The notes below the pieces were generated by a model. The model was not told the origin of the DNA and made no database searches. It worked only from the letters and a program-made list of their open reading frames with translations. Positions 20,151-30,775 of a DNA stretch of 64,000 nt are shown in pieces. The position numbers and the translations under genes were made by a program. How positions within the stretch are numbered: position 1 is the first letter of the stretch; each line of letters opens with the position of its first letter. Location of the stretch: assembly GCA_913055685.1 (NCBI GenBank), contig CAJXKC010000001.1, forward strand, positions 620,001-684,000, given 5' to 3'. This DNA comes from an uncultured Flavobacteriales bacterium (GTDB lineage: Bacteria; Bacteroidota; Bacteroidia; Flavobacteriales; Schleiferiaceae).

Positions 20151-21791
20151 ATGCAATTTCCACGCTTAACCAGGCCGGGGCTTTCCCTAAATCTAGATTA
20201 TCTCTTTTTATGCCTTATTGCTGTGGCTTCATTGATTGGTATAAACCAGTATCATTATGGCATGTGGAATCAGTTTGTTTCCTTGCCATGGCTCTATGAT
20301 TTATTAGATCCGAGCCTCTTTCCCAATGATATGCTAGTTGAGCAGCGGAGTGCCTCGCCCAGTTTCTTTCTAAATATAATTGCCTGGTTTAGCGCCTTCT
20401 TTGGACTTAGTATCGCCAGGGCGCATTTTATACTGTACATTCTGTTTTTAATTCCTACCATTTTTAGCTTTTACGCATTGGGGAAGAGTTTTTTCCAGAA
20501 TTCAAAGGCGGGAATTATGGCGGCGGTATTGATGAGCTTTGCCTTTCCGGTTATTGGCGATGTGCAAAGTTGGGATAGCCTGCTTATGGAACGAACCATG
20601 GCTTTGCCATTCCTTCTTTTTGCTTTAAGCGCTTTTATTAGGGATCGCTATTGGATAATGACTTTGTTATTGGGAGTGGCTTTTAACTTACATCCCCTTT
20701 CGGCTATTTACCTAAGCTTTCCTTTGGCTTGCGCCCTCTTTTACAAAGAAGGCTTTAAATGGTCCTATTTGCGCTATGGGCTGGCTTTCTTAATATTAGC
20801 AGGCCCGGTGCTTTATTTAAGGTCTCAGAGTTCTTCGGGGGAGTCTTTATTTGCTTTTGGAGAAATTTGGATGGAGGCCATGAGGTTACGCAATGCGCAT
20901 CATGCATTTCCCTCGGCCTATCCCTTATTCATTTGGCTTAAATCAGCCGCTATCTTAATTCTATTCTTAGTCCTAAGTCATTTCGGACCGTGGACAAAAA
21001 AGCTAAGGCGGAGTCTTTATGGTTTTGGTAGCGGCATTCTTTTGCTGTTGCTGATGGGGACCATCTTTACTGAATGGTATCCAGTGAAAATCATTATTCA
21101 ATTGCAGTTTTTCCGATCCTTCCTCTTTTTAATTTTCATCAGTTTGGCGATGTGGTCGGCCGTGATTTTTGAAAAGGCGCGCCCCTGGTACTATCTGCTT
21201 TTTGCTTTCATCGTACTGCAGTTCGTGGGGGCAGACCTCGCTAAGTTAGCGGGACTCCTTCTGTGTGGGGTATTCACTTGGTTTATTCTAACTTTTAATC
21301 ATCATAAAGTTTGGAGCTTGACCCTAATAGCGGGCCTTTTTCTGGCCTTGGGGGCTGGAGCCTTTTACATGAGGGGGGGGCTTAAAATTGACCGGGGCAT
21401 TCAGTCACAGGAATGGTATGATCTACAAGATTGGTTTGCCGAAAAAAGCGCGAAAGACGCGATGGTTATTGTGCCTCCCACAGAGTTGGGCTTTCGAGTA
21501 AGGGCTAAAAGAAGTTCTTATGGTGATTGGTTTGATGGTACCAAGGCCTTTTTTAGTGAGGAATATGCCCGGTATTGGCTCGACCACATGTATAGTTTAG
21601 ACGCTTATAAGCCTTCTAATTTGAAAGAGTCATACAATGGCCTTCTTTTAGAGCACGTCTCGCGATTGGGAGAGCAATTAGCCGCTAAACATTCGGAAGT
21701 TTACATTATTCGATATGCCGATAGCGAAGCCTATCCCTTGGCGGAGAGCTTTTGGAACGATCGCTATAGGGTGTACCGGCTTTACCCTTAA
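20151..21791 (+). CDS. Polytopic membrane protein, glycosyltransferase-C-like, function unknown
   Basis: A 546-residue protein with about 10-12 membrane helices in the first 420 residues and a soluble C-terminal ~120 residues containing VVPPTELGFRVRAKRSSYGDW. An early luminal loop has PWLYDLLDPSLFPNDML, and LLMERTMALPF follows. The layout (many helices then a soluble domain) resembles GT-C glycosyltransferases and O-antigen-type enzymes, but I do not see a decisive DxD/ExD motif with family context, so no reaction is assigned. The stop shares TTAA with the convergent lipoprotein gene. Confidence 0.65.
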   Translation: MQFPRLTRPGLSLNLDYLFLCLIAVASLIGINQYHYGMWNQFVSLPWLYDLLDPSLFPNDMLVEQRSASPSFFLNIIAWFSAFFGLSIARAHFILYILFLIPTIFSFYALGKSFFQNSKAGIMAAVLMSFAFPVIGDVQSWDSLLMERTMALPFLLFALSAFIRDRYWIMTLLLGVAFNLHPLSAIYLSFPLACALFYKEGFKWSYLRYGLAFLILAGPVLYLRSQSSSGESLFAFGEIWMEAMRLRNAHHAFPSAYPLFIWLKSAAILILFLVLSHFGPWTKKLRRSLYGFGSGILLLLLMGTIFTEWYPVKIIIQLQFFRSFLFLIFISLAMWSAVIFEKARPWYYLLFAFIVLQFVGADLAKLAGLLLCGVFTWFILTFNHHKVWSLTLIAGLFLALGAGAFYMRGGLKIDRGIQSQEWYDLQDWFAEKSAKDAMVIVPPTELGFRVRAKRSSYGDWFDGTKAFFSEEYARYWLDHMYSLDAYKPSNLKESYNGLLLEHVSRLGEQLAAKHSEVYIIRYADSEAYPLAESFWNDRYRVYRLYP

Positions 21792-22234
21792 TACACATTG
21801 TCGCTGTCTGGGCAGTCGATGGCTAAGGTGTAGGCAAAGCCGTAGATATTCCTAAATCGGAGTACAGCTTTATCGCAAGAAGAATGCTGTTCATTACCAA
21901 GCTCCCTGCAATAATAACGCACACTGCGACTGTTAAGGTTCTCCCAGCTTTGATCAAACTTATCCCAGGTATTTATTAGGCTATCGGCTTGATAAAACCA
22001 GACTTTCTCCAGACGTAGAGGAGAGAGGATAGGCCTTTGGTCGCGGCTATAAAGGGAAACCACCCCATAGGATTTACCATTACCACCAGGCATCTTATTG
22101 TTAATGATGTTACAACCAATTTGCCAGTTTTTACCTAAAATTTTTGCCTCCTCTGTAAGTTTGTATTGGCCTGGGCGGGGCCTACCAATACCGCATGAGC
22201 TAAGTGCTAATAATAGAACAAGAATTCTTTTCAT
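21788..22234 (-). CDS. Small lipoprotein, function unknown (end of the Lol-like operon)
   Basis: A 148-residue protein with a lipoprotein signal (MKRILVLLLALSSCG; Cys about 14). It has five further Cys in the mature part (IGC, YYC, SSC, and DCPDSD near the end), suggesting disulphides in the periplasm or at the surface. No family is recognised. Its start overlaps the previous lipoprotein gene stop by four bases, and it appears to be the last gene of the TetR-LolA-FtsX-ATPase-barrel row. Confidence 0.6.
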   Translation of the reverse strand: MKRILVLLLALSSCGIGRPRPGQYKLTEEAKILGKNWQIGCNIINNKMPGGNGKSYGVVSLYSRDQRPILSPLRLEKVWFYQADSLINTWDKFDQSWENLNSRSVRYYCRELGNEQHSSCDKAVLRFRNIYGFAYTLAIDCPDSDNVY

Positions 22235-22860
22235 TTCAGTTGACTTAAGGCAATGCTCATTCTTTGTCTCGAAAAGGACTCACCTTCACCACCGGGGAAA
22301 AGCACCAGGCTATCCGCCGAAAGGCAATAGGGGATTAAATCCGAGTCGCCCCAAACATAAGAGGCTTCATTGAACTGCCTATTTTGGGGGTCATTGGCAG
22401 CCCAAGTCTTTAATTTTGATTGCATTTCTTGCCACTCCGATTCACTTAAAGCCAATTCCAAGGGATAGAAATAACCCTCAGGAAACTTTATGGTAATGGG
22501 ATAATAGGTGGTCCATACGCTACTAGTGCTGGTATCAAGTTTATCGCTTCGAAGTTCAATACTTAGCAGGGTGTCGAGGTGACTATGGACCCTGTAGGAG
22601 CTTTTAATAGAGCTCGGAATACTATCCTTTAAGCAAGCCGCACTAGCTTTAAACAAACCGGTAGCTTCCCTTAAATAGCGGTTAATACCTTCTTGAATAA
22701 GACTATCTTCTAGGGCACTAATTTGAGGGTAGTGATGCTCAATCTTACAATGGGGCTCATCCATTAAAAGTAAATCCTGGCCTTCGAGATTGTAATGTGG
22801 CTTTTGCTGGCAAGCCATGGCAATAAGGCCGATTAGGAAAAAGGAAATTTTCTTAGGCAT
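22231..22860 (-). CDS. Lipoprotein, function unknown (Lol-like operon)
   Basis: The ATG at 22860 gives MPKKISFFLIGLIAMACQQ, a clear lipoprotein signal (lipidated Cys about 17); an in-frame start 24 bases upstream would spoil it and overlap the barrel gene. The mature ~190 residues have no recognised domain; DSLIQEGINRYLREATGLFKASAACL looks helical, and later strands (SIELRSDKL, YYPITIKFPEGY) look beta. It starts 11 bases after the barrel gene and overlaps the next lipoprotein gene by four bases, so it probably works with the barrel. Confidence 0.6.
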   Translation of the reverse strand: MPKKISFFLIGLIAMACQQKPHYNLEGQDLLLMDEPHCKIEHHYPQISALEDSLIQEGINRYLREATGLFKASAACLKDSIPSSIKSSYRVHSHLDTLLSIELRSDKLDTSTSSVWTTYYPITIKFPEGYFYPLELALSESEWQEMQSKLKTWAANDPQNRQFNEASYVWGDSDLIPYCLSADSLVLFPGGEGESFSRQRMSIALSQLK

Positions 22861-22871
22861 GCCTAAAGGTA

Positions 22872-24101
22872 CTAAAAGGACCACTTCAAGCGCACAAAGA
22901 AATTATTGCTAAGCCATTGTAATTCTTGATTTTCCCTAGCGTTTTCGGTTAGGAAGACTTGAGCGGCTAGCAATAAGTCGAGGTTGGTGCCTAGGCTATA
23001 ACTGAGACTGGGGAAAAGAATAAGGTTTTGATTTTCCGGCGCATACATAAAGGTTAAGGAGCCATTGAAAATGGGGCTGAAGGCAAAATTGCTATTGAGG
23101 GCAATGGTGTGGGCAAAGGGAAAGGGGTTTTTCGGACTTAAAACCACCCCTTGATTGAAGCTATTAAACTCTCCGATACCGGTGAATGCCTGCTCGGCAT
23201 TGAGTAAATAGGAAGCAGAGATATATAGACCATTACTAAAGACATAATCTAGGGCCGTGCTAAACACAAAATTGTTGTACTCATCAATTGCCTTTCCGGT
23301 TGCGATAATACTTGATTGCGCTTGCCCGAGGCCCCAATAATAATTAGCCTCACCTTTAAAGCCGAGCTGCCAAATATTGCCGGCCCAGCCTCCTCCTAGG
23401 CTTATATTATTCCGGTAAAAAGCGCCGATTATTTGAAAGTCGTAGCTAAACTGGGTGTTTTTATAGAGTAAGGCCGCGGTGCTTTCCTTGATTTGCTCCG
23501 CTGGAGCAATAGCCAGCTCCCAAGTACTGGTAAAACTTGGGAAATACTGTAGTCGCAGGGCATCGCTGCCCGGTCTTTCCTCGTAATCAAAATCAAAGAA
23601 ATTATACTGATTTAAGATATCATTGGGGTTCCAGATGGTGTTTATCCCCCAATTAATCCGTTGCCGGCCAAGTCGGAGTCCGAACTTCTCGCCCTGGTAT
23701 TGAAACCAAAGCCGGTCAATTATAGTGTGAAGTACCACTTCATCGTTGCGCCAGTATAGCATGCTAAGGTCTACCAATCCTGGATCTGCGTCTAAAATGT
23801 CTAAGAAAAGGTCGCCGCTTTTAAGTTGACTCCCATTAAAAAGGCGGTTACGCATGCCAATGCCCATTGACCAAGCACCGTGGTAGAGTTTAAAGTCGAA
23901 ACGATTATGCAATTGTTGATCAAAACTTTGCAGCTCTAAGTTAGCAGAGATATTGGGGTCGAAAAAAGCATCATTCACTTTGCCATAGGCGCCAAAATAC
24001 TTGAGATAGCCCTGCAGCTCGTAATCCCATTCGGACCCTTCTTGACCTTGAAGCCTCAAAGCAGCGAATATTAAAAGCACTATGAGCCTTCTAAGCCTCA
24101 T
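22872..24101 (-). CDS. Outer-membrane beta-barrel protein (DUF1302-like) of the Lol-like operon
   Basis: A 409-residue protein with a signal peptide (1-19, ending LRLQGQ) and a barrel-type pattern throughout, closing with FFVRLKWSF (terminal Phe). The segment GRQRINWGINTIWNPNDILN (about 142-161) is reminiscent of DUF1302/alginate-export-like barrels, which are often encoded beside LolA-like proteins and envelope pumps. It overlaps the ATPase gene by four bases. I infer it is the outer-membrane endpoint of the exporter, either channel or acceptor. DUF1302 membership is a resemblance, not a search result. Confidence 0.7.
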   Translation of the reverse strand: MRLRRLIVLLIFAALRLQGQEGSEWDYELQGYLKYFGAYGKVNDAFFDPNISANLELQSFDQQLHNRFDFKLYHGAWSMGIGMRNRLFNGSQLKSGDLFLDILDADPGLVDLSMLYWRNDEVVLHTIIDRLWFQYQGEKFGLRLGRQRINWGINTIWNPNDILNQYNFFDFDYEERPGSDALRLQYFPSFTSTWELAIAPAEQIKESTAALLYKNTQFSYDFQIIGAFYRNNISLGGGWAGNIWQLGFKGEANYYWGLGQAQSSIIATGKAIDEYNNFVFSTALDYVFSNGLYISASYLLNAEQAFTGIGEFNSFNQGVVLSPKNPFPFAHTIALNSNFAFSPIFNGSLTFMYAPENQNLILFPSLSYSLGTNLDLLLAAQVFLTENARENQELQWLSNNFFVRLKWSF

Positions 24102-24781
24102 TTCTTGGTATCGCTTTTTATTTTTCCGTCCTCAACATAAACCAAGCGTTGCGCTCGGTCAATCACCCGCTGATCATGGGTAGAGAATAAAAAAGTAATA
24201 CCTTCTTCCTGATTGAGTTTGTGCATTATATCGAGAAGGTCCTCGGTGCTTTTCGAATCGAGGTTGGCGGTCGGCTCATCGGCCAAAACAAAGCTAGGTT
24301 TAGAAGCTAGAGCTCTTGCCACCGCGACTCTTTGCTGCTGCCCGCCACTTAATTCATTCGGCCTTTTATGTGCCTGTTGTTCGAGGCCAACGGCTTTTAA
24401 AAGCTCGAGAGCTCTCTTGCTGCGCTCCTTAGCACTCTTACCCTGCAATTGCATGATAAACTCCACATTCTCCTTGGCGCTAAGCACAGGAATCAGATTG
24501 TAAGCTTGGAATACGAATCCAATATGACGAAGTCTAAAATTGATGAGTTCGTTATCGCTTAGCTCGTGGATTTCTTTTTGGTCTACAATTACTTCGCCCT
24601 GGCTAGGATTGTCAAGTCCGCCGATAAGGTTAAGGAGCGTAGTTTTCCCCGAACCAGAAGGACCTATAATAGCGGTGAACTCCCCTTCTTCAACCGAAAG
24701 GTTTATTCCATCTACGGCACGAATGATGCTATCTCCATCCTGGTAATCGCGGTGTAAGTTTGTAGTTTCTATAATAGCCAT
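24098..24781 (-). CDS. LolD/MacB-type ABC transporter ATP-binding protein
   Basis: The 227-residue ATPase has Walker A GPSGSGKTT (about 40-48), Q-loop FVFQAYNLIP, signature LSGGQQQRVAVARAL, Walker B FVLADEPTANLDS and switch His in FSTHD, all as in the LolD/MacB/FtsE group that drives mechanotransmission rather than classic import. It pairs with the two FtsX-type permeases upstream in the operon (10-base gap) and overlaps the barrel gene by four bases. Confidence 0.9.
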   Translation of the reverse strand: MAIIETTNLHRDYQDGDSIIRAVDGINLSVEEGEFTAIIGPSGSGKTTLLNLIGGLDNPSQGEVIVDQKEIHELSDNELINFRLRHIGFVFQAYNLIPVLSAKENVEFIMQLQGKSAKERSKRALELLKAVGLEQQAHKRPNELSGGQQQRVAVARALASKPSFVLADEPTANLDSKSTEDLLDIMHKLNQEEGITFLFSTHDQRVIDRAQRLVYVEDGKIKSDTKK

Positions 24782-24791
24782 AATAAATGCT

Positions 24792-26018
24792 TTAGATGGT
24801 TCTGATGGTTTCGATGGGGTTTAATTTAAGAGCATGACGGGCCGGGTATATGGAGGCCAGAAGGGTCATGATAAAGACAATGGCTGCGGTACCAAAATAG
24901 AAGCTGCTGGGTACGCTCGGATAAATTATAGTTCCTATGCCATAGCTGGCTAAGCCATCACTGAAAACCTCTAAAGATAAGCCACTAAGCTTGCCTTGCT
25001 CTACCGAAAAGTAGCCTAGAATTATTCCCAAAGGGCCGCCAATTAATGATAGGTAGAGGGTTTCAATAATGATCATGCTAAAAACTCGGCCTTTGCTCAT
25101 TCCTACGCACATAAGAACTCCGAGTTCTTTGCGCCTTTCAAGAACAGCCATAAGCATAGTGTTTATGATGCCGAAGGAAAGGGCCAGCATAATAATTCCG
25201 ATAATGATAAAGAGCATTTGGGTCATGATGGAGTCACTGTAAGCAAGTTCCGGCGCTAAGTCCTTCCAGCTTTCCACCAATTGATTGGGATACTGACCTT
25301 GTAACCAGGTTTTAAGACTATCGGAATCCGCTTCGTTTTCTGCAAAAGCCGCGATCTCGTGGTAGTCCTCAGCGCCAATGCCCAGTAATTCCTGAAGGTC
25401 ATTTGCGCGTACATATACCTTCATTTTTTCGATGGTGGAGGATACTTCCGTATATATCCCCTTTACTTTAAAAGAAGCCGAAACAAGATCATTGTTGGCG
25501 TTGCTAAAGTTTAAGATAACCTTTGAGCCAGGCTTTACTTCCAGCTTTTCGGCCAAAGCAGCCCCAATGAGAATGGGGTTACGACCTTTTTTACTGAAGT
25601 ACTTACCACTGCTGTCAATTTTTGCCGCTAAACCGGTTAGCTTGTTTTCTGCCTCTGCTTCGATGCCATAGATCTGGACGCCGCCGCTGTAGTGGGCCGT
25701 GGCCGCCATTCCGTTGGCAATCACTCTCGGAGCTACTGCTGCTATTTCAGTTTTACTGCTTAGGGAGCTTAAAATGGCTTTGGCTTCAGAAAGCAGATAT
25801 TCTACTTCCATCTGGTCTTTCCACTCCGCTTTGTGCACCTGGATATGAGAGAACTGGTTCTTTAAAAGCGCGTCTTTCCGTTGATCGTTCAGTCCGAAGC
25901 TGAAGGCGCTCACAAAAATACCAGCCCAAATTCCTAGCATAATGGAAATAATTACCACGGAACTGCGGAGCTTATTGCGCCAAATATTGCGCCAAGCAAT
26001 GTTAAATAGAGTTTTCAT
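24792..26018 (-). CDS. FtsX/MacB-type ABC permease (second)
   Basis: A 408-residue permease with one N-terminal helix (about 18-38, after NIAWRNIWRNKLRSS), a large periplasmic MacB_PCD-like domain (about 45-265) and three C-terminal helices ending in YPARHALKLNPIETIRTI, the classic FtsX family tail. This four-helix layout is shared with LolC/LolE and MacB. It overlaps the first permease gene by four bases. Together they would form a heterodimer like LolCE, extracting a lipid or lipoprotein from the inner membrane. Confidence 0.87.
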   Translation of the reverse strand: MKTLFNIAWRNIWRNKLRSSVVIISIMLGIWAGIFVSAFSFGLNDQRKDALLKNQFSHIQVHKAEWKDQMEVEYLLSEAKAILSSLSSKTEIAAVAPRVIANGMAATAHYSGGVQIYGIEAEAENKLTGLAAKIDSSGKYFSKKGRNPILIGAALAEKLEVKPGSKVILNFSNANNDLVSASFKVKGIYTEVSSTIEKMKVYVRANDLQELLGIGAEDYHEIAAFAENEADSDSLKTWLQGQYPNQLVESWKDLAPELAYSDSIMTQMLFIIIGIIMLALSFGIINTMLMAVLERRKELGVLMCVGMSKGRVFSMIIIETLYLSLIGGPLGIILGYFSVEQGKLSGLSLEVFSDGLASYGIGTIIYPSVPSSFYFGTAAIVFIMTLLASIYPARHALKLNPIETIRTI

Positions 26019-27232
26019 CGACGCATGGCTTTAACAGGTGATAATCGGTAAATACTAAATACAGCGTAGAGACCTAAAATCATACTTATTACTAATACCA
26101 CTAGGCCATGAGTAAGCCATATAGAGGGATCTACACTGAAGGGAATGATGGGCTCCATGCCGTACTCCTCGGTCATTTTCTCCATTTCACCACTAAGCTG
26201 AATAGGGTTTAGGTGGTAATACCAAGAGATAGGTAAAGAAAGGATACTACCTAGTAAAATGCCCAATAGAGATAAGAAACTGGTTTCCATAAAGGTAGTG
26301 ACCGCCAAACGGGCGCGGTTCATCCCTATCGAAATGAGGATGCCAAATTCTGGTCGGCGCTCAGCGCTTAGCATTAGGATGGTTCCGAAAATACCAAAGC
26401 CAATCACTAAATAAAGGATGAATAGGATGGCCAAGCCTCCGGCGCTATCGGCCTCCATGGCTTGTATTAGTTCGGGCATCATCTCTCGCCAGGTAAGGAT
26501 TTCACTACCCTCGCTAAGCTTGGCACTCAATTCAGTCTTTAATGCAGCTAGCTTATCCGTAGATTTTGGAATTAGTACTAGGCCGGTATACTGACCAAAG
26601 GCTCCGGTTAGTTCTTGCATTTGCTCAAGGCCGATAAAAACGGTTGATTTATTGGCATCAGGATTCGGTAATTTGGCAAGGCCAATAACGGGATATTTGC
26701 CATTGGCACTCATGCCGTGGTAACCCTGACCAATAATAACGAGCGTGTCGCCTATAGAAAGACCAAGGTTTTCAGCCAACTTTTTAGCTAAGACCACTCC
26801 ATTTTCTCCCTTTGCAGGTAGGTGTCCGCTTTCTATTTTATCAGCTAAGCCGAAGTATAGGCTTTCTTTATCTGCTTCAATTCCACGAATTAAGCCAGGC
26901 CTAGTATCGCTATGGTCAGAGGCCAGCAGAGCGAAGCTCTCTAAGCGCGGCACAAGATCAATTACCTCGGGGTGATTTTCAATTTTAGCAAGGTCTTCCT
27001 CATTAGGGCTAAAACTTCTCTCCAGACTTTGTTTTTCCCAATAGCCTTCACCTTGCCATTGCAGGTAACCGGTGGTGGCGTTAATTACACTGGAATAGGC
27101 TTGGTCGTAAGTGCCCAATTGCATACTCCGCATTACCAGGGCAAAGAAGAGCGCAAAGCTCACAGAAGCCATGGTAATTATACTGCGGCGCTTGTTTCTC
27201 CAAACATTGCGCCAGGCCATTTTAAATAACAT
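26015..27232 (-). CDS. FtsX/MacB-type ABC permease (first)
   Basis: A 405-residue permease homologous in layout to the next gene: start MAWRNVWRNKRRSIITM, one N-terminal helix, periplasmic MacB_PCD-like domain (about 45-265), three C-terminal helices and an end in YRLSPVKAMRR. Its ATG overlaps the TAA of the LolA-like gene by one base. The two permeases differ along their length, so this is an ancient pair like LolC/LolE rather than a recent duplication. Confidence 0.87.
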   Translation of the reverse strand: MLFKMAWRNVWRNKRRSIITMASVSFALFFALVMRSMQLGTYDQAYSSVINATTGYLQWQGEGYWEKQSLERSFSPNEEDLAKIENHPEVIDLVPRLESFALLASDHSDTRPGLIRGIEADKESLYFGLADKIESGHLPAKGENGVVLAKKLAENLGLSIGDTLVIIGQGYHGMSANGKYPVIGLAKLPNPDANKSTVFIGLEQMQELTGAFGQYTGLVLIPKSTDKLAALKTELSAKLSEGSEILTWREMMPELIQAMEADSAGGLAILFILYLVIGFGIFGTILMLSAERRPEFGILISIGMNRARLAVTTFMETSFLSLLGILLGSILSLPISWYYHLNPIQLSGEMEKMTEEYGMEPIIPFSVDPSIWLTHGLVVLVISMILGLYAVFSIYRLSPVKAMRR

Positions 27233-27972
27233 TAGCGGATGCGTTTCATGTACTGGGTGGTGAAATACTCACGTGGAATATTCACTTTAAAGTCTAGGCT
27301 TTGATAGCGCATTATGGTCTTATGCCCCTCCTTATTCACTGGGGTCATAATTAGCACCGAAGCCAGCATTTTCCCGCCAAGCTCTTTGATTTCCTTGGCT
27401 TCCATTACATTGACTAAATCGAGTTCCTCATCGTAAAACTCGGTGCGTAGGTGTATAAATTCTTTCTTATCAATATGTAAAACGACTTTGCCCCAAACCA
27501 CGGCGGCATTTTCCTTAGGAAGAAGTTCAATTTTATAAGCCTTACGCCCATCGATTTCCACTTCTTCGATATATTTATGGCTGTAGTCGCGCACTAATGA
27601 TGATTCATTTACTAAGTCATCGTTGGTGAAATCAGAACCCATCCAGCTTTGCGACATCATGCTTGGCGGAAGCTTAATATTTCGTTCGATACTGGGGATC
27701 CAATTGTAAATTTCTTTGTCCTTTTTTAGAAATACCGTACCCTTATCTCGGGCCGGCTGGGTAATTAAGACTAATGAATTCTTGCTTCCCCTTGACCAAG
27801 ATTTTAAGGCGATGGTACGTTCCCATCTAGGTCTTACAATGGTCATGGACATTTCCGCATAGCTTTGCTCACCCCTTAATTTGTCCTCGGCTTTTTGAAC
27901 GATTTCCAATGCATCTTGGGCGGTAATAGTGAGGGAAATTCCCATTAGGAAGCTTAGCACCAAGCTTTTCAT
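27232..27972 (-). CDS. LolA-like periplasmic carrier (outer-membrane lipoprotein-sorting family)
   Basis: A 246-residue protein with a signal peptide (1-18, ending LTITAQ) and a half-barrel LolA-like fold: KAEDKLRGEQSYAEMSM, then strands with RGSKNSLVLITQPARDKGTVFLK and the family segment MMSQSWMGSDFTNDDLV. This longer LolA-like class is found beside FtsX-type or RND pumps and differs from housekeeping LolA. It is expected to carry a lipophilic cargo through the periplasm from the permeases to the barrel. It sits directly after the TetR gene (four-base overlap). Confidence 0.82.
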   Translation of the reverse strand: MKSLVLSFLMGISLTITAQDALEIVQKAEDKLRGEQSYAEMSMTIVRPRWERTIALKSWSRGSKNSLVLITQPARDKGTVFLKKDKEIYNWIPSIERNIKLPPSMMSQSWMGSDFTNDDLVNESSLVRDYSHKYIEEVEIDGRKAYKIELLPKENAAVVWGKVVLHIDKKEFIHLRTEFYDEELDLVNVMEAKEIKELGGKMLASVLIMTPVNKEGHKTIMRYQSLDFKVNIPREYFTTQYMKRIR

Positions 27973-28544
27973 AATTGATATTTTTTTAGGATTTTTTGTT
28001 TCATTCTTTCCAGAGGATAGTCTGCATTCATAGCAAGGTAACCTATACCAGTCCCATCTAAAAGGGCGCCAAAGGCATAAGCTTCGGCGAGGGGATCATC
28101 ATAGCCGAGCTCCTTAAAAATTTCCTCGTATTGCTTTAAGCCATGCAGTTTTTGGAATTTAACCTTTTCCTCTACAAGATGCATCACCTCCGGCTGTAAG
28201 GCTAAGGCAGTCATAAAACGCACGGTATCGGTATTTTTTTGGAAATACTCGAAGCTCATTTCCACGACATAGCGCAGCTGCTCCTTGGCGCCCATGTCTT
28301 TTACGGCTTCCTCAATACCCTGGCCCACCGCGAATAACATATCGATAATCCCCTGTAGGATTTCTTCCTTGGAATTGAAATAATGATAGCTGAGACCTTT
28401 AGAAATACCCGCCTCCTTGGCGATATAGCTCATGCTCGCAGAGCTATAACCCTTTTCAGCGAAAGCTTTGAAAGCGGCCAATAGAATTTGTTGGCGCGTT
28501 TCTTCTCGTAGGGCACGATTTTGGGCTTGCGTACGCGGACTCAT
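27969..28544 (-). CDS. TetR/AcrR-family transcriptional repressor
   Basis: A 191-residue regulator with an N-terminal TetR helix-turn-helix (about 14-58: ILLAAFKAFAEKGY, SMSYIAKEAGISKGLSYHYF) and a helical ligand-binding C-terminal domain. It is the first gene of the LolA-FtsX-ATPase-barrel operon and overlaps the LolA-like gene by four bases. Two near-identical 16-base palindromic sites lie in the 68 bases upstream, on the -33 and -7 elements, so autorepression of the whole operon with release by a lipophilic ligand is likely. The ligand is unknown. Confidence 0.9.
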   Translation of the reverse strand: MSPRTQAQNRALREETRQQILLAAFKAFAEKGYSSASMSYIAKEAGISKGLSYHYFNSKEEILQGIIDMLFAVGQGIEEAVKDMGAKEQLRYVVEMSFEYFQKNTDTVRFMTALALQPEVMHLVEEKVKFQKLHGLKQYEEIFKELGYDDPLAEAYAFGALLDGTGIGYLAMNADYPLERMKQKILKKYQL

Positions 28545-28553
28545 AGTTTTTAA

Positions 28554-28569
28554 TTGAACGACTGGTCAA
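28554..28569. promoter_or_regulatory. TetR-type operator O1 (on the -7 element)
   Basis: TTGAACGACTGGTCAA, an imperfect palindrome (TTGAnC...GnTCAA). It overlaps the TTTG end of the minus-strand -7 box, so occupancy would block the promoter. It shares 12 of 16 bases with O2. Confidence 0.6.
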
Positions 28570-28574
28570 AGGTA
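28567..28574 (-). promoter_or_regulatory. -7 promoter element of the TetR-Lol-like operon
   Basis: On the minus strand TACCTTTG, a full TAnnTTTG match, 22 bases before the TetR ATG. The -33 region (GTT, 19 bases upstream) falls inside operator O2. Confidence 0.6.
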
Positions 28575-28590
28575 CGGTAAAAAATTTTAA

Positions 28591-28606
28591 TTGAACAGAT
28601 GGTCAA
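28591..28606. promoter_or_regulatory. TetR-type operator O2 (on the -33 element)
   Basis: TTGAACAGATGGTCAA, same pattern as O1, 37 bases away. It lies over the expected -33 element of the same promoter and extends to an ATTGA...TCAAT palindrome. Confidence 0.6.
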
Positions 28607-28612
28607 TTAAAA

Positions 28613-30775
28613 TTAAAACCAAAACCCTAATCTGATGTATGCGTAGATATCGCGATGGTTGGTGCTGCCTGCGAGGTTAAACTCGAGCGGACCAAGGATA
28701 CTGTTATAGGTGTAGCCAAGACTATAGCCATCTAATAGAATATCGGAAATAAACAATGCATTTAGGGTAGGCTCCATTTTCCCAAAGTTAGCTTTAAGCT
28801 GAAGGTAATGGTTCTTATAAACCTCGTAGTTTAGGTCGGCCCGCAACATTAAAGCATTGCGACCGATTAACTCCATAAAGCGATAACCAATAAAGGGCTG
28901 GATATAGTTGATATATGCCTGACCCATACTACCAAAGTGAATTTGATAAGGCCTGGCAAGGTTAGGCCCAATTGTGGTGGCTCCGTAAAAACGGCTTATC
29001 AAGGTCCACCTGGAGTTAAAACTAATGGCCTGCCGGTAGCTTAAATCAAAAACGGAACTAGGTTCTAAAAAGGTTTCAAAGCCCTGTCTTTCGGCAATAA
29101 TGCGGTATTGAGCATTTAGCTGAAAGCCGTGCTTAGGGAAATTAGCGTCATCGAAAGAGTCGAAGTCGAGGTAAGCATAGTAGTTTATAAAGCCCTGGTG
29201 AAGTTCTTCGGTCTGACTCGTTTCAAAATCCTCGGTGATATCTACATCTTCAATTTGAATTCCCCCTCCCAGAGCATAGGCGTCCCTTATAGTGGACTGC
29301 AGAAATAAGTCAAGGGAGTAATCCTGATATATTTTTTCATTAATGGCAAAACGGTTTCTAAAGTTTTGATAGCGAAAACGATAACTACGGAGTCTTATGC
29401 CCAAGGTGGGGATAAAACCTCGATCAACGAAATAGTTTAATTCTCCACGGGGCATCTCCCCCAGGGCTAGGTCTACGCTCAAGCGCGAGTTCTTAAAGAG
29501 GAGCTTGCGGTTGGTGTAATTAAGCAATAAGGCTGCGCCAAAATCGTCGCTGTAATTCAGCCCCAGCTTAAAGCTTTGGTAATAATCCTGCTCCTTTAAG
29601 TTAATACGGAGCGTATAACCCGAATCGGCCTTGGCAATGGTATAGTCTACTGTTTCAAAATAGCGTGAGCCATAGAGTTGATCTAGACCAGCCTCCAGTT
29701 TCTCTAATTTACAGGGGCGACCTTCCTTAAGTCTAAGCTTGCCAAGTACATAGTTCCGGGTTAAACTTTTAAGACCATTTACTTCTATTTTTTGGACATA
29801 AAACTCACGTTTTGGGGTGGCTTTGTCCTTTAACTCAGCTTTAATTGGATCCGCGGCAGCGAGCTCCACTAAAGCGTCCCAATGCTTACGTGCTTCCCGC
29901 TCACCTTCTGCCACAATGCTGTCAAATAGTTCGAAGCTATTAATTCCCGCTGCCGGAATTTTCGGGGTAATCCAAATATCGGTTAATGCCTCGGAGTCGC
30001 CTTTATTTCTGGAGTTTAAGAAGGCGGTGGTTTGCTCCAAGACCCGAATTACGCTATTTAATTCTTCACGTTCGTTGAGGTAATCCTGCATGTCTACGCC
30101 AATGACTACGTCCACATCCTTCTCACGCATAATTTTCACCGGATAGTTTAACACTACTCCTCCGTCGATGTAAAGACTATCGTCTATTTCGTAAGGCGTG
30201 AATAAACTTGGAAAGGCAGAACTAGCTCTTAAAGCATCGATTAAGCGCCCTTCTTCAAAGACCTTGGCTTTACCGGTTTCTAAATTTGTCGCCAAGCAAT
30301 AGAAGGGAATTGGTAATTCTTTAAAGCTTTGGTAGGGATATGACTGCTGCGTAATAGAGCTAAGCTCTTTTAAAATGTATTGGGCATAATTTATTCCTTG
30401 TGGTACTTCTATTCCGTTCTTGGTAAGGGGAAAGCTCAGGAAATAACGGTCATCCGCTTTACGATCAAAAAAGCTTAGACGGTTTCTCGGAACTTCATTC
30501 GCCATTAAGGCATCCCAGTTCACCTGGCGCAGATATCCTTCAATTTCATTAGCACTGTAGCCCAGGCTGTACATGGCGCCGATGATTGCGCCCATAGAAG
30601 TTCCCCCAATGTAGTCGAGCTTGATGCCGGCCTCTTCTATTACTTTAAGGGCACCAATTTGAGCCATACACTTTGCGCCCCCACCACTTAGTACTAAACC
30701 AAACTTGAGATCTTTTTTAGCCTGGCCAGCTAGCAGAGCGGGAATAAGGGTTACTATGAGAAGAAAGCGCTTCAT
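28613..30775 (-). CDS. Patatin-like phospholipase with POTRA and outer-membrane barrel (PlpD-like)
   Basis: A 720-residue fusion: signal peptide (1-17), patatin domain (about 25-215), POTRA-like domain (about 325-395, FYVQKIEVNGLKSLTRNYVLG) and a C-terminal Omp85-type barrel ending LGFWF. The catalytic dyad is Ser in GTSMG and Asp in DGGVV. The oxyanion loop reads GGGAKCMAQIG, where most relatives have GGGAKG/RG and AHIG, a small deviation. Relatives such as PlpD are type Vd autotransporters that hydrolyse phospholipids. Its start overlaps the uvrC stop by four bases; the TetR operon follows after 68 bases with its own promoter. Confidence 0.87.
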   Translation of the reverse strand: MKRFLLIVTLIPALLAGQAKKDLKFGLVLSGGGAKCMAQIGALKVIEEAGIKLDYIGGTSMGAIIGAMYSLGYSANEIEGYLRQVNWDALMANEVPRNRLSFFDRKADDRYFLSFPLTKNGIEVPQGINYAQYILKELSSITQQSYPYQSFKELPIPFYCLATNLETGKAKVFEEGRLIDALRASSAFPSLFTPYEIDDSLYIDGGVVLNYPVKIMREKDVDVVIGVDMQDYLNEREELNSVIRVLEQTTAFLNSRNKGDSEALTDIWITPKIPAAGINSFELFDSIVAEGEREARKHWDALVELAAADPIKAELKDKATPKREFYVQKIEVNGLKSLTRNYVLGKLRLKEGRPCKLEKLEAGLDQLYGSRYFETVDYTIAKADSGYTLRINLKEQDYYQSFKLGLNYSDDFGAALLLNYTNRKLLFKNSRLSVDLALGEMPRGELNYFVDRGFIPTLGIRLRSYRFRYQNFRNRFAINEKIYQDYSLDLFLQSTIRDAYALGGGIQIEDVDITEDFETSQTEELHQGFINYYAYLDFDSFDDANFPKHGFQLNAQYRIIAERQGFETFLEPSSVFDLSYRQAISFNSRWTLISRFYGATTIGPNLARPYQIHFGSMGQAYINYIQPFIGYRFMELIGRNALMLRADLNYEVYKNHYLQLKANFGKMEPTLNALFISDILLDGYSLGYTYNSILGPLEFNLAGSTNHRDIYAYIRLGFWF

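Follow-up and report, generated by a model that had tools for sequence, protein, structure and literature searches.

A TetR-LolA-FtsX-FtsX-ATPase-barrel operon with a conserved core in a Flavobacteriales genome, a candidate trans-envelope exporter

Gene content and organization of the operon

Contig CAJXKC010000001.1 of an uncultured Flavobacteriales bacterium of the family Schleiferiaceae (assembly GCA_913055685.1) carries a compact operon that combines the inner-membrane parts of a Lol-type ATP-binding cassette (ABC) pump with a LolA-like carrier, an outer-membrane barrel, two lipoproteins and a TetR-family regulator. In this work, the operon was studied within a window of 64,000 nucleotides (positions 620,001 to 684,000 of the contig), to which all coordinates refer, and by comparative genomics across the Bacteroidota. 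A preliminary description of the window had proposed that eight minus-strand genes, separated by overlaps or gaps of at most 11 bases, constitute a specialised trans-envelope exporter. All eight open reading frames (ORFs) are present as claimed, from 28544 down to 21788, with neighbouring genes overlapping by 1-4 bases and with two gaps of 10 and 11 bases.

The first gene encodes the TetR-family regulator (27969..28544; PF00440, TetR_N, 58 bits against a cut-off of 24), a putative local repressor. It is followed by the periplasmic carrier (27232..27972), whose match to PF17131 (184.3 bits; cut-off 30) bears out its earlier placement in the longer class of LolA-like proteins found beside pumps; it is the single copy of this family in the genome, and its solved structural relatives are 3buu, 9tp6, 4z48 and 3bk5. 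Next come FtsX permease 1 (LolC/E-type; 26015..27232) and FtsX permease 2 (LolE/C-type; 24792..26018), which match the FtsX profile with 62.9 and 58.6 bits (cut-off 25.5). Matches to the FtsX and MacB-like core profiles over cut-off, together with the predicted LolC/E fold of permease 1, place the pair among the type VII (LolCE-like) ABC proteins. The LolD-type ATPase (24098..24781) scores 240.5 bits with TIGR02211 (cut-off 307.75) and 128 with ABC_tran (cut-off 25), and is 41% identical to LolD of Escherichia coli. The barrel gene (22872..24101) had been called DUF1302-like, which holds as a likeness and not as family membership, the PF06980 score of 20.3 bits lying below the cut-off of 23.2. 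The last two genes encode lipoprotein 2 (22231..22860) and lipoprotein 1 (21788..22234), both with a lipobox recognised by inspection. The ORF of the former spans 22231-22884, and the more probable start codon is the ATG at 22860, since the signal peptide and lipobox, as read by eye, begin there.

Conservation of the five-gene core

The conservation of the operon was examined from the barrel in several genome samples, which overlap slightly (at least one locus, L064, repeats another, L031). Among 60 genomes of the family, seven of them from the source genus, the barrel was found in 21, including all seven of the genus, and the order LolA-FtsX-FtsX-ATPase-barrel in 16 of these 21 (the window and 15 others). 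Three of the remaining family loci (L043, L044 and L046) are cut by contig ends, and two (L049 and L050) show no cassette gene in the surrounding DNA examined. A scan of named GTDB genomes yielded at least 543 barrel relatives; the full five-gene set, in some cases with extra permeases, is present at 62 of the 80 best that were kept, and the other 18 loci are partial, mostly at contig ends. The barrel is thus conserved next to the permeases, as the preliminary description had expected of a specialised system.

In a sample of 198 Bacteroidota genomes, the barrel profile matched 48, from 35 of 103 genera, and for 45 of these 48 a strong PF17131 gene was found on the same strand at a distance of no more than 7 kb; in G182, G163 and G255, separate contigs carry the two genes. 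Outside the phylum, Vibrio campbellii keeps the LolA-FtsX-FtsX-ATPase-barrel order unbroken, and no TetR gene was matched in the 19 kb examined around the cassette. In a plasmid collection, two Persicobacter loci show other gene orders, and the protein that takes the position of the barrel in the second (L061) has no assigned family; MMPL-LolA-DUF1302 sets were seen there in Prevotella nigrescens (L063) and Haliovirga. The barrel was also sought in viral contigs, with no match.

Several local variants were seen. At L102, L125, L089 and L124, the cassette includes three or four FtsX permeases. In one genus of the family (g9; L039:4430-7185, L040 and L042), two paralogous DUF4421 proteins, identified by a Pfam run on L039, are inserted, one between permease 2 and the ATPase and the other between the ATPase and the barrel. 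The lone barrel relatives of L049 (4597-6087) and L050 (7524-8714), from two genera, stand directly behind an enoyl-ACP-reductase-like gene, read as fabI.

Beyond the core, 36 flanking families recur in at least three of 92 loci, the commonest in six, partly reflecting the shared synteny of related genera. That no non-core family exceeds six loci fits a stand-alone unit, and the lack of a widely recurring neighbour suggests that the cargo is general or cell-derived rather than the product of one pathway. Pairwise distance correlations among the five genes, computed over 74 cassettes after removal of the duplicate-type loci L064, L065 and L080, range from 0.64 to 0.83 (carrier-barrel, 0.78); since they carry no species-tree control, they are not taken as proof of contact.

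The two lipoproteins behave differently from the core. Lipoprotein 2 is present in five of the seven genus genomes (the source genome and L031-L034) and lipoprotein 1 in three (the source genome, L033 and L034), and neither was seen outside the genus among the loci examined. Both were therefore rejected as core parts, contrary to their proposed role in the machine, and are regarded as genus-level accessories. No Pfam or TIGR family was assigned to lipoprotein 1. Lipoprotein 2 has weak matches below cut-off to PdaC (E 0.0026) and RsiV (E 0.00016), neither of which recurs in three of its relatives; a LolB-like role was considered for it, and no LolB-type family matched. Hence the expectation that barrel and lipoproteins would be conserved together half fails. 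As to co-occurrence of the eight genes, the five-gene core is conserved, TetR is common and not universal, and the lipoproteins are restricted to the genus.

Carrier-centred view and alternative motors

Viewed from the carrier, PF17131 is found in 117 of the 198 Bacteroidota genomes, in 87 of them over cut-off. Among the matches listed, 91 strong loci (E 4e-33 or better, the window's own excluded) were surveyed. At 42 of these, the carrier, at least two FtsX permeases, the ATPase and the barrel occur together. Three loci have FtsX downstream and no barrel match, one of them (L191) at a contig end. At 16 loci FtsX lies upstream of LolA, in 15 cases with an ATPase; the three that were looked at (L198, L206 and L254) encode a secreted-looking protein of 377-426 amino acids, with no assigned family, where a barrel would be expected. 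An MMPL pump stands beside 12 carriers, seven of them with a DUF1302-type match, two with the family of the window barrel and three with neither. The two loci with the window-barrel family (L216 and L234) have the order TetR-LolA-barrel-MMPL, and their barrels score 101 and 107 bits with the window-barrel profile; the carrier-barrel pair therefore occurs with two kinds of motor.

The partnerless PF17131 genes (L236-L240, L242, L243, L245-L253 and L257, 17 in all, and L202 at a contig end) may represent a stand-alone carrier class. Of three that were looked at, two (L236 and L248) adjoin genes read as universal-stress proteins.

Predicted folds of the barrel and permease 1

The barrel model, built from 59 sequences, has a mean predicted local distance difference test (pLDDT) score of 90.7 and 18 long strands, as counted from the listed secondary-structure elements. 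In structure comparison it matches OprD/Occ channels (Z about 23-24), chitoporins and the Campylobacter major outer-membrane protein (23.2-23.3) and AlgE (22.8), followed by Wzi (20.1) and maltoporin (19.7); Foldseek ranks AlgE first. The differences in Z among the top families are small, so these families are not separable. The model thus points to an OprD/AlgE-like channel-type fold, a fold that alone shows no function. A barrel had been placed at the receiving end of the route, where LolB acts in the Lol system; the barrel encoded in the operon is predicted to be an 18-strand channel and not a LolB-like receptor. DUF1302 matches at E 0.01 or better were obtained for 20 of the 59 family members. 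Pfam gave the window barrel no Omp85 match, nor does Omp85 figure among the families recorded for the 59 members; the structural matches listed are OprD, AlgE and porins, and absence from such lists does not exclude Omp85. A search of the barrel profile against Protein Data Bank sequences gave no match.

The model of permease 1 (pLDDT 89.4) matches LolE and LolC of LolCDE best (Z 21.4-29.6); other matches are a streptococcal non-canonical ABC permease (24.4), the heme exporter HrtBA (22.7) and MacB (18.6). By sequence, too, LolF, LolE and LolC rank ahead of MacB.

Relation to the housekeeping Lol system

The preliminary description recognised that its reading would fail if the FtsX pair were the only LolCDE of the organism. 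The genome, which is 99.9% complete, carries 16 FtsX matches. With the LolCE model TIGR02212, the operon permeases score about 133 (permease 2) and 86 bits, and two permeases elsewhere (C1:366790 and C2:755514) score 161.5 and 143.9, all four below the cut-off of 362.45. Because both of the latter outscore the operon pair, we rejected the pair as the sole LolCE candidate, which supports the specialised reading. Neither PF03548 (LolA) nor PF16584 (the Bacteroides type) matched in the genome at E 0.001, so the housekeeping LolA was not located. No LolB-type family (Pfam or TIGR) was found among the eight operon genes, to which the LolB search was confined.

In alignment, the operon permeases lack a short insertion that E. 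coli LolC has at the position taken here as the LolA-recruiting Hook. At the same place, the permease 1 proteins share a loop with the consensus GQGYHGxxAAG, similar to one in permease 1 of Vibrio and Persicobacter and absent from permease 2. This loop is a candidate docking loop.

Predicted regulation by TetR

The 68-base gap before the TetR gene contains two copies of the palindrome TTGAMC-N4-GKTCAA, with starts 37 bases apart. The distal operator TTGACCATCTGTTCAA (28591..28606, minus strand) accounts for the end of the region as first delimited, 28606 being the last base of the palindrome. Its exact pattern is found at three of the seven genus loci (the window, L031 and L032), and the other four show, by inspection, one or two mismatches. 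The proximal operator TTGACCAGTCGTTCAA (28554..28569, minus strand) is exact at all seven. It overlaps a promoter-like box TACCTTTG (28567..28574, minus strand) that fits TAnnTTTG, which we take to be the consensus of the Bacteroidota -7 promoter box. At the more distant loci L037, L038 and L066, TTGACT-N8-AGTCAA stands at the corresponding spot, and TAnnTTTG is present in all ten upstream regions.

The two sites in the window are the only ones in the 2.96-Mb genome; a reversed control pattern likewise has two genomic sites, so that the number of sites in the genome does not by itself exceed chance. The unusual point is that both sites fall within one 68-base gap: among 200,000 mononucleotide shuffles of the gap, four had one site and none had two. 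A repressor bound at the proximal site would cover the TAnnTTTG box, and self-repression, as previously proposed, is thus supported at the level of predicted operators. A scan for sigma-70-type promoters, which does not cover those of Bacteroidota, gave no promoter-like site before TetR, and it found fewer promoter-like and terminator-like sites than in shuffles.

Regulators were counted at the 77 of 100 loci that have both carrier and barrel, on the same strand and within 400 bases before the carrier. The preceding gene encodes a TetR protein at 35 loci, a MarR/GbsR-type regulator at four (assigned at L102 by match and at L045, L047 and L048 by inspection, with Pfam confirming L045) and another protein at 19; the remaining 19 have none. 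Among the 42 phylum-sample cassettes, a same-strand TetR gene is present in 12 and a divergent one in six more (L204, L205, L207, L209, L212 and L221).

Immediately upstream of TetR, on the same strand (28613-30775), lies a gene whose product joins a patatin-like phospholipase to POTRA and Omp85_2 domains. It was considered as an operon member and is treated as a neighbour, because the operators and the promoter-like box separate it from TetR. Relatives of this gene are the next gene downstream of the barrel at L099, L102 and L125, in other Bacteroidota.

Proposed function and alternative explanations

We regard it as moderately probable that the operon specifies a locally repressed, self-contained exporter of the ABC-carrier-channel type for an amphiphilic or lipophilic small molecule. 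The LolCDE-like type VII ABC complex of two permeases and the ATPase would extract the molecule from the inner membrane and load it onto the soluble LolA-like carrier. The carrier would then cross the periplasm and deliver the molecule to the dedicated 18-strand barrel, from which it would reach the surface. TetR would occupy the two operators at its own promoter and be released by a ligand, which may be the cargo itself. The specialised exporter originally proposed is thus supported for six of the eight genes, with a core that is conserved and that is not the only LolCE candidate, and is not supported for the two lipoproteins.

Several observations weigh against this proposal. The barrel could import instead of export. 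It occurs without any cassette gene in the surrounding DNA examined in two family genomes (L049 and L050), and without one in about 4-5 kb upstream at two GTDB loci (L120 and L123). In G255 its contig differs from that of the carrier and the pump, and in G182 and G163 the parts are split between contigs. A same-strand TetR precedes the carrier at fewer than half of the loci counted, and 18 of the 91 PF17131 genes have no pump or barrel parts beside them.

A second, specialised lipoprotein-sorting route, from the pump through the carrier and the barrel to or across the outer membrane, is unlikely. Surface lipoproteins are numerous in Bacteroidota, which would suit such a route; the permease, ATPase and carrier are all nearest to Lol-type parts, and two lipoproteins are encoded in the operon. 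However, these lipoproteins are not conserved with the system, the predicted barrel has the fold of a porin or exporter channel, and the permeases lack the E. coli LolC insertion. In favour of this route, lipoproteins are named by the authors as a possible ligand of the Borrelia BBJ23-29 system (PMC13078400).

Rather improbable is a pump for a porphyrin-, heme- or iron-related compound, as one case of a small-molecule exporter. Sibling operons driven by MMPL pumps are strongly induced by iron or hemin shortage (PMC10434189, PMC10470040), and the heme exporter HrtBA figures in the list of structures that resemble the permease 1 model. Yet the sibling operons have another motor and merely related parts, induction by shortage suits uptake or scavenging better than detoxification, and none of the 36 flanking families reads as iron- or heme-related. 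Uptake or retrograde transport, in which the barrel would admit a compound and the carrier take it to the inner membrane, is very improbable: the OprD/Occ proteins that best match the barrel are uptake channels, but AlgE, with a similar 18-strand fold, is an exporter, and export or force transmission is the role of known type VII ABC proteins. A point in favour of uptake comes from Thalassolituus oleivorans, in which a protein with MMPL and LolA-like domains and a porin-like neighbour rise on the long-chain alkane n-C28; the authors link the porin to alkane passage or entry (PMC6304351).

More tentatively, the exporter favoured here may belong to a distinct, duct-free class of ABC export, built on a portable carrier-barrel module that works with either an ABC or a resistance-nodulation-division (RND) motor, has spread through the Bacteroidota and reached Vibrio, and is often under its own repressor. 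The whole ABC cassette is found in the window and at 42 surveyed loci of the 198-genome sample; if the proposal is true, about a fifth of the sampled Bacteroidota genomes have an uncharacterised route that places an amphiphile on the outer membrane or outside it. Such a compact unit of five genes, with its predicted operator, would make it possible to test how lipids and small amphiphiles traverse the periplasm where no fixed bridge exists. The proposal could likewise account for the role of many pump-adjacent genes annotated as "outer membrane lipoprotein-sorting protein", including iron-regulated ones in oral Bacteroidota.

Comparison with known systems

The operon shares with the housekeeping LolCDE-LolA-LolB system a LolC/E-type permease pair, a LolD-type ATPase and a LolA-fold carrier. 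It differs in having a PF17131 and not a PF03548 carrier and a barrel in place of LolB, and in the presence of higher LolCE scorers elsewhere in the genome. With MacAB-TolC it has in common FtsX/MacB_PCD permease domains and an ABC motor, whereas its carrier is soluble and neither a MacA adaptor nor a TolC duct is found among the eight genes.

Operons of Porphyromonas gingivalis (PG1178-PG1181) and Prevotella intermedia, encoding TetR, MMPL, a lipoprotein-sorting protein and a hypothetical protein, rank with the most strongly induced genes when iron or hemin is scarce, the increase in P. gingivalis reaching 136-fold or roughly 8 log2 units (PMC10434189, PMC10470040). They resemble the window operon in their TetR and LolA-like proteins, and the P. 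nigrescens locus L063 also in a DUF1302 barrel; they differ in their MMPL (RND) motor, two other ABC proteins and the induction itself. In Flavobacterium johnsoniae, the flexirubin-linked LolA2/LolB2 proteins have been suggested to serve a pigment (PMC11885536), which hints that small molecules, too, can be the clients of LolA-type carriers.

No published description of an FtsX-LolA-barrel cassette in Bacteroidota was found in the open-licence PMC literature. The closest precedents are Borrelia BBJ23-29 and AmeABCD. The former, a predicted exporter of a non-polar ligand, likewise unites in one cluster a MacB/LolE-like permease, an ATPase, a LolA-like carrier and an outer-membrane barrel; its permease is homodimeric, its barrel of the Omp85 type, and it includes two TPR proteins, whereas the window operon has a permease pair, an OprD/AlgE-like 18-strand barrel and TetR. 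The seven-gene cluster is reported only from Borrelia (PMC13078400). AmeABCD of Castellaniella defragrans, a reported exporter of hydrophobes whose deletion lowers monoterpene tolerance, likewise combines a DUF1302 outer-membrane protein, a LolA-superfamily periplasmic protein and an inner-membrane pump, but with an HAE3 RND motor, a DUF1329 carrier and a second periplasmic protein in contrast to the FtsX/ABC motor described here (PMC6394551). The operon is therefore a further variant of an already known pump-LolA-barrel kind.

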